Origin: Streptomyces sp. T39
GTDB lineage: Bacteria > Actinomycetota > Actinomycetes > Streptomycetales > Streptomycetaceae
Direction of reading: 5' to 3'
Assembly: GCF_008042045.1 (NCBI RefSeq)
Contig: NZ_RDBP01000012.1
Span: 1,427,729 to 1,491,728, forward strand
Length of the DNA stretch: 64,000 nucleotides
Positions 26,580 through 29,549 of this stretch are shown piece by piece. Numbering within the stretch: the first letter of the stretch is position 1; every line of letters begins with the position of its first letter. The translations under genes and the position numbers were made by a program. The notes under the pieces were generated by a model. It was not told where the DNA came from. It ran no database searches and worked only from the letters and a program-made list of their open reading frames with translations.

Positions 26580-27128
26580 TCAGCTCTGGTGCGCCTCGTA
26601 GTGGGCGACGGCGTCCGCTGTCCGGCCCGCTCCGTACACCCGGAGGAACTCTGCCAGTTCCGGGTGGGTGGGGGCGAGGGAGTCGGCCGCGTCGATGATG
26701 TCGCCCGCCGCCGCGACCGAACGCAGCAGCGACTGGATCTCGCGGACGACACGGCGCACGGTCGGCGCCCCGGAGGTGCCGGCGGACTGGCTCGTGCCGG
26801 TGAGGACGGAGCCGCCCTGCGACTTCTTGATCTCCTCCATCCGGCCCGTCGCCTCGACCGCGCTGACGCTGCCGTCGGCCACCTGGCTCGCGAGTTCCTG
26901 GAGCGCCTGGACCCGCTGGACCACGGCCGGATTGCCGATCTTGGCGCGCTGACCGCTCATCAGCTGGGAGAGCATCGGAGCCGACAGCCCGAGGACACCC
27001 GCGAGACGCGCCTGGTTGAGGCCCAGGTCGTCGATGAGCCGGCGGAACAGTGCGCCGAGCGGTTCCCCGTACCAGCTCCGCTGCAGTTCCCGGGCTCTTG
27101 CGGTCGTCTCCTGCTGCGCTGCGTCCAT
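26580..27128 (-). CDS. Helix-turn-helix DNA-binding protein
   Basis: 182-aa protein with an XRE-like HTH near residues 25-65 (LIDDLGLNQARLAGVLGL then SAPMLSQLMSGQRAKIGNP). The rest is helical with no recognised ligand domain. ATG 27128 follows GGGGAG. The gene precedes the Ser/Thr kinase by 46 bp on the same strand; the regulator may be a kinase substrate, which is inference. Its upstream region runs into the left arm of the tRNA-Ala inverted repeat. Confidence 0.82.
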   Translation of the reverse strand: MDAAQQETTARARELQRSWYGEPLGALFRRLIDDLGLNQARLAGVLGLSAPMLSQLMSGQRAKIGNPAVVQRVQALQELASQVADGSVSAVEATGRMEEIKKSQGGSVLTGTSQSAGTSGAPTVRRVVREIQSLLRSVAAAGDIIDAADSLAPTHPELAEFLRVYGAGRTADAVAHYEAHQS

Positions 27129-27242
27129 TGCGTCTCCCCATCGCTTCCCCAAGCGGCTTCGCTGCTGCGAACCTCGGGAGCATCTTACGGAGCGTGGTCG
27201 TCCACCGGGAGGCCCATGGGGAGTCCCGTGCTGCCAATCCTT

Positions 27243-27273
27243 TTGCAGGATCACGGGGGTGACCCGCTACTCT
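27243..27273 (+). promoter_or_regulatory. Candidate tRNA-Ala promoter (left copy)
   Basis: TTGCAG (27243-27248) and TACTCT (27268-27273), 19 bp apart, resemble vegetative -35 and -10 elements and lie ~50 bp upstream of the tRNA. Because the repeat is perfect, the same elements occur in mirror image at 27577-27607 for the minus-strand copy. Confidence 0.4.
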
Positions 27274-27325
27274 TGAGCACGGCGGTGGCCGGGTGACCGG
27301 ACCACCTCCTCGTGCACACCCTCAC

Positions 27326-27398
27326 GGGGCCTTAGCTCAGTTGGTAGAGCGCTGTCTTTGCATGGCAGATGTCAGGGGTTCGACTCCCCTAGGCTCCA
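27326..27398 (+). tRNA. tRNA-Ala (anticodon TGC), plus-strand copy
   Basis: 73-nt cloverleaf. Acceptor GGGGCCT pairs with AGGCTCC (one G-U), discriminator A at 27398, anticodon loop CTTTGCATG gives TGC at 27359-27361, T arm AGGGGTTCGACTCCCCT. CCA not encoded. Identical to the opposed copy at 27452-27524. Confidence 0.97.
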
Positions 27399-27400
27399 CT

Positions 27401-27449
27401 CGTGAAGACCCTTCCGACCTGCGAAAACGCGGTCCGGAGGGTCTTCACG
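27401..27449. terminator. Bidirectional terminator between the two tRNA-Ala genes
   Basis: 19-bp stem with two mismatches (27401-27419 with 27431-27449) around the 11-nt loop TGCGAAAACGC. It lies exactly between the 3' ends of the two opposed tRNAs and can stop transcripts from either side. Confidence 0.75.
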
Positions 27450-27451
27450 AG

Positions 27452-27524
27452 TGGAGCCTAGGGGAGTCGAACCCCTGACATCTGCCATGCAAAGACAGCG
27501 CTCTACCAACTGAGCTAAGGCCCC
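27452..27524 (-). tRNA. tRNA-Ala (anticodon TGC), minus-strand copy
   Basis: Exact reverse complement of the copy at 27326-27398, with anticodon at 27489-27491. All cloverleaf pairings are therefore retained. It is either a true second gene produced by inverted duplication or an assembly artefact. Confidence 0.9.
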
Positions 27525-27573
27525 GTGAGGGTGTGCACGAGGAGGTGGTCCGGTCACCCGGCCACCGCCGTGC

Positions 27574-27756
27574 TCAAGAGTAGCGGGTCACCCCCGTGAT
27601 CCTGCAAAAGGATTGGCAGCACGGGACTCCCCATGGGCGCCGCCCCGGCAGGCCGTAGCGGCGTGCGGTGAATTCCAGCGCCATGAGGAATCCGAGGACG
27701 GCGACAGCCGCTACGGCCCAGAGTCTCGCCCGTGGTTGGTGCCGTATGTGTATCAA
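27574..27756 (-). pseudogene. Inverted 5' fragment of the PAP2 gene
   Basis: The segment 27642-27790 is an exact reverse-complement copy of 27814-27962 and so contains the first 38 codons of the PAP2-family gene (from the TTG mirrored at 27756). Beyond 27642 the frame runs into the tRNA-Ala repeat arm and stops at 27574 after 22 unrelated codons. It encodes only the first membrane segment and is surely nonfunctional as a phosphatase. Confidence 0.8.
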
Positions 27757-27962
27757 CGTCGACCGCTCCGCTCGATGGTGACCGGACCGCACTCCTTCCG
27801 TCTCCCCGGAGGGGCGGTCCGGTCACCATCGAGCGGAGCGGTCGACGTTGATACACATACGGCACCAACCACGGGCGAGACTCTGGGCCGTAGCGGCTGT
27901 CGCCGTCCTCGGATTCCTCATGGCGCTGGAATTCACCGCACGCCGCTACGGCCTGCCGGGGC
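27642..27962. repeat. Second perfect inverted repeat, 149-bp arms, around the PAP2 gene start
   Basis: 27642-27790 pairs exactly with 27814-27962 (coordinate sum 55604), separated by a 23-bp spacer. It starts only 3 bp after the end of the tRNA-Ala inverted repeat, so the region is two adjoining palindromes covering 27212-27962. Confidence 0.97.
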
Positions 27963-29230
27963 CGATCACCACCCAGGCCCGGGAGGTGATGTTCCCGCCC
28001 AAATCGGGCGGCATACTCTACGCCGGCATGGCGCTGACGATGGTGGTGCTCACCTGGCGGCAGCGCTTCATCGCCCTCGGGGCGGCGATCGGGATCGACC
28101 TGGCCTTCTGGGCGGTCCGCTGGGCGGCCGGCATCGAGGTGACCGGCGGCCACCCCTTCGGCAACGGCGCGCTGTGGGTGATCCTGGGCGTCGCCGTCAT
28201 CGCCGTCACCCGCCGTACCGGCACGGAACGGCTGCTGCTGCTGAAGGGCGCGGGCCTGGCGCTGCTGCTGGTGGCCGGACGCAAGACCGGCGACACCTGG
28301 CTGCTGATCACCTCCAGGACCCGCCCCATGGTGCTCGACCAGTACGTCGCGACCGCCGACCACGCGCTGGGCGACCCGTCCTGGCTGGTGGGCCGCATCG
28401 TCACCGCCACCGGCCCGATCGGCTTCAACATCCTCGACTTCGTCTACGGCCAGCTGCCGGTGGCCGCGGTCGTCGTCGCCCTGTACCAACTGCGGCACGT
28501 GGCCTGCGAACGCCGCTTCCCGGTCCATCACCTGGTGCGCACGTTCCTGCTGATAGGCCTGCTCGGGCCCGCCTTCTACATGCTCTTCCCGGTGGTCGGC
28601 CCGCTCTTCGCCTACGGCACGGGAGCGGAGCACTGGGCGTCGATCAGCCTGTGGTCGCCGGACATGATGCCGAGCGCGCAGTGGGCGCTGGGCGACCTGT
28701 GGCCCGACACCGCCCCGCCCCCCGGCACCCCGCAGCCCATGCCGTTCGACGAGTTCACCCCGCGCAACTGCATGCCGAGCCTGCACACGGCGTGGGCCAC
28801 CGCGATCTTCCTCCACACCCGCAGGAGCCCCGGGTTCCTGCGCCACGCGGGAACGTTCTGGCTGATCGCCACCCTCGCCGCGACCCTCGGATTCGGCTAC
28901 CACTACGGCGTGGACCTCATCGCCGGCGTGGTGTTCACGCTCACCATCGAGGCGGCTCTGCGCACATACGACCGGGGCTGGGACCGGTCGGGTCTGCGGC
29001 TGGTGGCCTACGGCACCGCCGTCTTCACCGCGCTGCTGCTGTCGTACCGCTATCTGCCGGTGGAGATGGCCCGGCACCCGTGGATCGCCGGGCCTCTGCT
29101 CGTCCTGGCGATGGCGTCGGTGATCTACGCCTATCTCCGCACCGGCGCCCGCTGGGAGCGGGACTCGGCACCGGACGCCGCATCCGCCGACTCCGGCCGG
29201 GCCGGGGCCGGGGTGGCGCTCAGGGGATGA
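27848..29230 (+). CDS. PAP2-superfamily phosphatase/transferase, polytopic
   Basis: 460-aa integral membrane protein of the PAP2 (Aur1/IPT1-like) superfamily, expected to act on a lipid phosphate or transfer a phospho-alcohol at the outer membrane face. About a dozen hydrophobic segments are visible. The catalytic motifs are present: PSLHTAWATAIF (motif 2 histidine) and GFGYHYGVDLIAGVV (motif 3 histidine and aspartate). The TTG start at 27848 is uncertain: all DNA from 27814 is part of an inverted repeat and the true upstream sequence may be displaced. Internal alternatives such as ATG 27919 (MALEFTA) would drop the first helix. Substrate unknown. Confidence 0.85.
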   Translation: MIHIRHQPRARLWAVAAVAVLGFLMALEFTARRYGLPGPITTQAREVMFPPKSGGILYAGMALTMVVLTWRQRFIALGAAIGIDLAFWAVRWAAGIEVTGGHPFGNGALWVILGVAVIAVTRRTGTERLLLLKGAGLALLLVAGRKTGDTWLLITSRTRPMVLDQYVATADHALGDPSWLVGRIVTATGPIGFNILDFVYGQLPVAAVVVALYQLRHVACERRFPVHHLVRTFLLIGLLGPAFYMLFPVVGPLFAYGTGAEHWASISLWSPDMMPSAQWALGDLWPDTAPPPGTPQPMPFDEFTPRNCMPSLHTAWATAIFLHTRRSPGFLRHAGTFWLIATLAATLGFGYHYGVDLIAGVVFTLTIEAALRTYDRGWDRSGLRLVAYGTAVFTALLLSYRYLPVEMARHPWIAGPLLVLAMASVIYAYLRTGARWERDSAPDAASADSGRAGAGVALRG

Positions 29231-29549
29231 GGGAAGCCGCGTCCTGCGGCTCCCTCCCCGCAAGGTCGGGGACCTCGCGTCCGGCGGCCGACGCGGTCCG
29301 TTCCACCGCCTCCGACGAGGCCCTGACCTGCCCTTCCGTCCCGGTCGGGCAGGTCTTCTCCCCGGTTCCTAGCGTGTGTCCGGCCGCTCCGCATCCCGGA
29401 CTGGGCGATCCGGGGCGCACGGGCCGTGGGCCGTCCGGGTGGTGTTCATCCGAAGAACTGCGCGGCAGGGGCGTCGCTCCCACACTCCTCGAGATGCGTA
29501 CACATCATGAGAAAGGTATGTAAAGCGCTCAACCCGAAAGCGAGGGGTC
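29231..29549. other. Intergenic region with hairpins
   Basis: 319 bp without a convincing gene. Just after the PAP2 stop there is an imperfect stem built on AGCCGC/GCGGCT, and a 9-bp perfect stem (29325-29333 with 29347-29355) followed by TTCTC looks like a terminator. The right end, with GAGGGG at about 29543, is the leader of the next gene. Confidence 0.5.

Follow-up and report, generated by a model that had tools for sequence, protein, structure and literature searches.

We found that the mirror-image pair of tRNA-Ala(TGC) genes in the draft genome of Streptomyces sp. T39 is almost certainly an artefact of the sequencing library and the assembly, of the fold-back type. The feature is most likely not genomic, and only one of the two tRNA genes, the one at 27326-27399, is likely to be real. 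The window, that is, the whole stretch of DNA analysed, is 64,000 nucleotides long and corresponds to C24:1427729-1491728, in a draft of 8.27 Mb and 292 contigs. Within it, the right-hand tRNA-Ala and the sequence from about 27450 to 27780 are most likely not genomic. On our reading, a gap of unknown size belongs at this place, and the real sequence there is missing.

A scan for inverted repeats identified two exact reverse complements, 27212-27412 (plus strand) and 27438-27638 (minus strand), of 201 bp each around a 25-bp centre (palindrome 1). A mismatch-tolerant version has arms of 208 bp at 99% identity, separated by 11 bp. ARAGORN finds one intact tRNA-Ala(TGC) per arm, at 27326-27399 on the plus strand and at 27451-27524 on the minus strand, the latter wholly inside the right arm. 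The exact arms and the ARAGORN result confirm the perfect 201-bp inverted repeat with two tRNA-Ala(TGC) genes that a preliminary description of this DNA had claimed, and the 25-bp centre, said there to hold a terminator hairpin, does fold as a terminator-like hairpin. The symmetry of palindrome 1 is far beyond chance.

The preliminary description recognized palindrome 1 but missed a second exact palindrome that abuts it. Palindrome 2 starts 3 bp beyond the first (join at 27639-27641, from the sequence and the inverted-repeat scan) and has 149-bp arms at 27642-27790 (minus strand) and 27814-27962 (plus strand). Its 23-bp centre, 27791-27813, is part of a hairpin, and ARAGORN detects no tRNA in it or its arms. 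The right arm contains the start of a gene for a DUF5933/PAP2-family protein (27848-29230, plus strand; Pfam DUF5933, 9.5e-70; PAP2_3, 2.5e-17), hereafter the PAP2 gene, and we judge this arm genuine, as it is continuous with the PAP2 open reading frame. We judge most of the left arm to be spurious: it would be an inverted duplicate of the beginning of the PAP2 gene with the sequence before it, and its geometry is that of the other abutting and gap-edge palindromes described below. The order along the locus is left flank, tRNA-Ala, hairpin, inverted copy, 3 bp, inverted copy, hairpin and PAP2 gene. At a minimum arm length of 20 bp and a maximum seed distance of 1.5 kb, these two are the only exact inverted repeats in the 64-kb window; at the same arm length, the right-hand join of the PAP2 gene lacks an exact palindrome.

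Folding of 27396-27455, around the centre of palindrome 1, gave -48.7 kcal/mol, and folding of 27765-27835, around the centre of palindrome 2, gave -60 kcal/mol; in each case 0 of 200 shuffles was as good, and both energies overstate the natural hairpins because the folded stretches take in part of the exact arms. The first fold contains a terminator-like hairpin after the tRNA-Ala (27404-27446, plus strand), which we propose as one fold-back point; the centre of palindrome 2 is the proposed second. In one relative, G030, a hairpin of different sequence directly follows the tRNA-Ala (-38.1 kcal/mol), which is independent support for a natural hairpin at the centre of palindrome 1. A search of genome contigs, from which the own genome was possibly left out, returned no match to the exact terminator stretch. 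Imperfections are confined to the interior of each hairpin, and from there outwards to the tips of the arms the match is exact; this pattern would follow from the fold-back of an end on a natural stem and its subsequent extension.

Palindromes are abundant in this contig. We took a census of exact inverted repeats (seeds at most 1.5 kb apart) in 1.6 Mb of C24 (1240001-2840000 of 3.61 Mb; L067-L106 and L127-L166), with nested or clustered rows tallied singly. Arms reach a length of 20 bp or more in 119 of them, 30 bp or more in 74, 50 bp or more in 53 and 100 bp or more in 33. One such cluster, at G000:C24:2197425-2198272, contributes 10 rows; these overlapping exact inverted repeats have arms of 33-54 bp, lie away from gaps and look like a repeat array. 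As controls, we scanned stretches of three relatives in the same way: at the 20-bp threshold, G129 (400 kb) and G030 (220 kb) have five repeats each and G094 (180 kb) has three. No repeat in these 800 kb reaches 30 bp, and the longest arm is 26 bp.

The palindromes of C24 are associated with gap edges. We counted 44 runs of exactly 100 N in the 1.6 Mb. By convention, a run of this kind marks a scaffold gap whose length is undefined. At 22 of 88 edges (left, 12 of 44; right, 10 of 44), the gap coincides exactly with the outer end of a palindrome whose arms measure 30 bp or more, so that 17 of the 44 gaps have a flush palindrome on at least one side and five on both. Random edges gave a mean of 0.049 (within 5 bp) and a maximum of 2 in 3000 trials, versus the 22 observed. 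The control stretches of G129, G030 and G094 are free of N, and the association with gap edges is measurable in C24 alone. The 74 repeats divide into 22 flush with a gap, eight that span a gap, 12 that form six abutting pairs and 32 that are none of these. The six pairs, the T39 tRNA-Ala locus included, abut without a gap, from a 4-bp overlap to 4 bp apart; they look like gap pairs with the gap removed, or like two fold-back contig ends placed end to end. Of eight readable contig ends fetched from the own genome, one, the start of contig C1, has a palindrome (92 bp, from base 1), and the other seven have none.

We aligned eight regions of the contig (A-H) to relatives. Compared with a relative, D, E (the tRNA-Ala locus) and F each contain an inverted copy. 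Region D (1329739-1329941) lacks a gap and has arms of 93 bp around a 17-bp centre; here adjacent sequence recurs inverted in the own genome, whereas in the relatives the flanking alignments enclose other sequence, 177 bp in G129 and 249 bp in G030. At F (gap 1494286), the gap-side arm matches G030 in reverse and the outer arm matches it forward. For A, B, C and G, the relatives compared offer no match to the inner arms, so that these four regions count neither for nor against an inverted copy. At H (G000:C24:1538000-1539500; gap 1538606), alignment to G129 revealed post-gap sequence that repeats the pre-gap sequence in direct orientation, probably overlapping contig ends left unmerged.

A query of 26900-28300 matched all 150 genomes searched, the own genome included. 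Among the matches listed, the left flank and tRNA match separately from the PAP2 part in relatives, and matches of the left flank often reach the right foot of the terminator at 27441-27445. We judge the left arm of palindrome 1, with its upstream flank and tRNA gene, to be genuine: relatives are colinear through the tRNA. The tRNA flank and the PAP2 part can lie far apart: in the complete genomes G118 and G141, for example, the matches listed are separated by about 140 and 169 kb, respectively. Among the matches listed for 391 same-genus relatives, no single alignment has the PAP2 gene adjoining this tRNA, and none joins it to the gene near 29427, although divergence may also break alignments. 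In the window, the PAP2 gene lies between the tRNA-Ala and the gene near 29427. G030 and G157 lack it there: some hundreds of bases beyond their tRNA comes the gene region that starts near window position 29427. Judging from these sequences, the PAP2 gene is therefore likely to be an addition in this lineage.

We kept 80 of 383 PAP2 loci (79 from Streptomyces, one from an Actinobacteria bacterium). Their fetched flanks contain a tRNA at five of the 80 loci, one of them a tRNA-Ala with anticodon AGC, and a tRNA-Ala(TGC) at none. Three of the 80 (L212, L240 and L263) contain exact inverted repeats of 30 bp or longer. Those at L212:2155-3380 and L240:2150-3368 are 84 and 72 bp long, about 1.06 kb apart and away from contig ends, and they reach into the PAP2 homologue of two Streptomyces; they are possibly real, because they are similar in both.

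The arrangement of tRNA and PAP2 gene bears on whether the structure could be a real repair scar, in which a double-strand break between the tRNA-Ala and the PAP2 gene left ends that folded into hairpins in the cell, were copied and were joined. End joining occurs in Streptomyces, the geometry of two abutting fold-backs with a 3-bp join fits, and the absence of PAP2-tRNA adjacency from the listed matches suggests that the site may be rearranged. However, like structures occur dozens of times in the contig, and their position exactly at a gap at a quarter of the edges is unexpected of a cellular event. We therefore regard a repair scar as very improbable. We give an equally slim chance to a true double fold-back, in which a chromosome break next to the tRNA-Ala was repaired by hairpin-primed copying of the two ends and end joining, in the same event that brought PAP2 to the tRNA; long perfect palindromes with short centres, perhaps dozens of them, would then persist in the chromosome.

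An artefact of library and assembly accords better with the tRNA content of relatives. We examined 27 tRNA-Ala loci, taken from 29 loci (L008-L036) that the 26900-28300 query had retrieved from relatives, with the PAP2 loci L014 and L015 set aside; the 27 relatives are the best-scoring of 149, not a random draw. A comparison of tRNA-Ala copy number in relatives had been proposed in the preliminary description, and ARAGORN found exactly one tRNA, a tRNA-Ala(TGC), in 27 of 27 loci, with no second copy such as a genuine duplicate would be expected to show. The inverted second arm of palindrome 1 has no counterpart in the relatives examined. Exact inverted repeats of at least 20 bp are present in six of the 29 loci, and the longest arms, 30 bp (L029, from G127), are too short to contain a tRNA. 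From the contig census and its absence in relatives, we judge the right arm, beyond the hairpin stem, to be a spurious inverted copy of 27212-27412, and the tRNA-Ala within it to be spurious likewise.

These results also bear on the suggestion that the palindrome is a functional or protected convergent tRNA-Ala pair, real and maintained. ARAGORN finds both copies intact, but the single copy in all 27 relatives, the lack of any tRNA in the adjoining palindrome 2 and the enrichment of similar palindromes at gap edges leave this reading next to no credence. The two tRNA genes with head-to-head transcription and complementary RNAs that had been envisaged are unsupported, given that the genome most likely lacks the right-hand copy. 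The preliminary description had left three options (very recent, protected or artefact), of which the contig census and the relatives strongly favour the artefact and disfavour a real maintained pair. It is just as hard to credit that true palindromes are difficult to assemble and hence have neighbouring gaps: gaps and palindromes are indeed associated, but we would expect an assembler to stop near the centre and not at the outer end of the second arm, and this idea also has against it the empty 800 kb of three relatives at arms of at least 30 bp and the one tRNA here in 27 relatives. We rejected convergent tRNA genes, a cellular repair scar and assembly-breaking real palindromes, each for the reasons stated with it.

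We infer the following fold-back chemistry and false closure for the artefact. On each side, single-stranded ends would fold back at a natural hairpin: on the left at the terminator of the tRNA-Ala, on the right at the hairpin that precedes the PAP2 gene. A polymerase would extend the folded ends, and the resulting reads would pass along a sequence and then return over it. The assembler or a gap filler would extend both contig ends into such fold-back reads, and the gap would be falsely closed by butting the two palindromic ends together. In keeping with an artefact, the arms are identical around a hairpin centre (the folded stretches including part of the exact arms), the structure recurs in the same assembly at gaps and at one of the contig ends fetched, and it is absent at the same place in every relative examined.

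Comparable artefacts have been described. The portion of PMC10908179 consulted reports chimeric reads from sonicated and enzyme-treated libraries, arising at inverted repeats or palindromes through single-strand pairing. As far as that portion goes, the fold-back reads resemble our case in that natural inverted repeats seed pairing after fragmentation and the read continues on the opposite strand; they differ in being seen at the read level in human DNA, whereas here the product would be built into a bacterial assembly, at gaps or joins. Artificial inverted-repeat reads from nanopore ligation libraries, microbial DNA standards included, are described in the part of PMC13141652 consulted; according to that part, library making yields artificial inverted repeats, as we propose here. 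The third of the PAP2 loci with a long inverted repeat, in Streptomyces ossamyceticus NRRL B-3822 contig_439 (L263:1-509), has an exact inverted repeat with 201-bp arms and a 107-bp centre that starts from the contig end. This is the same signature in another draft, although in another species and another gene neighbourhood, and at a single contig end rather than two joined.

Some observations weigh against an artefact. There is no N anywhere in the window, 66 of the 88 gap edges are without a flush palindrome, 32 of the 74 palindromes neither meet nor span a gap and have no abutting partner, and only one of the eight readable contig ends fetched has a palindrome. The exact hairpin at L029, which lies outside the 800-kb controls, indicates that 30-bp arms occur naturally too.

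On the artefact reading, a tRNA gene that is probably false can be disregarded, together with a false palindrome. Exact palindromes that are flush with gaps or contig ends, or paired and abutting, further serve as a signature of falsely extended contig ends in a high-GC draft. Genes at the inverted repeats of C24 may be annotated as inverted fragments, and automatic annotation would otherwise list extra tRNAs and inverted gene fragments.
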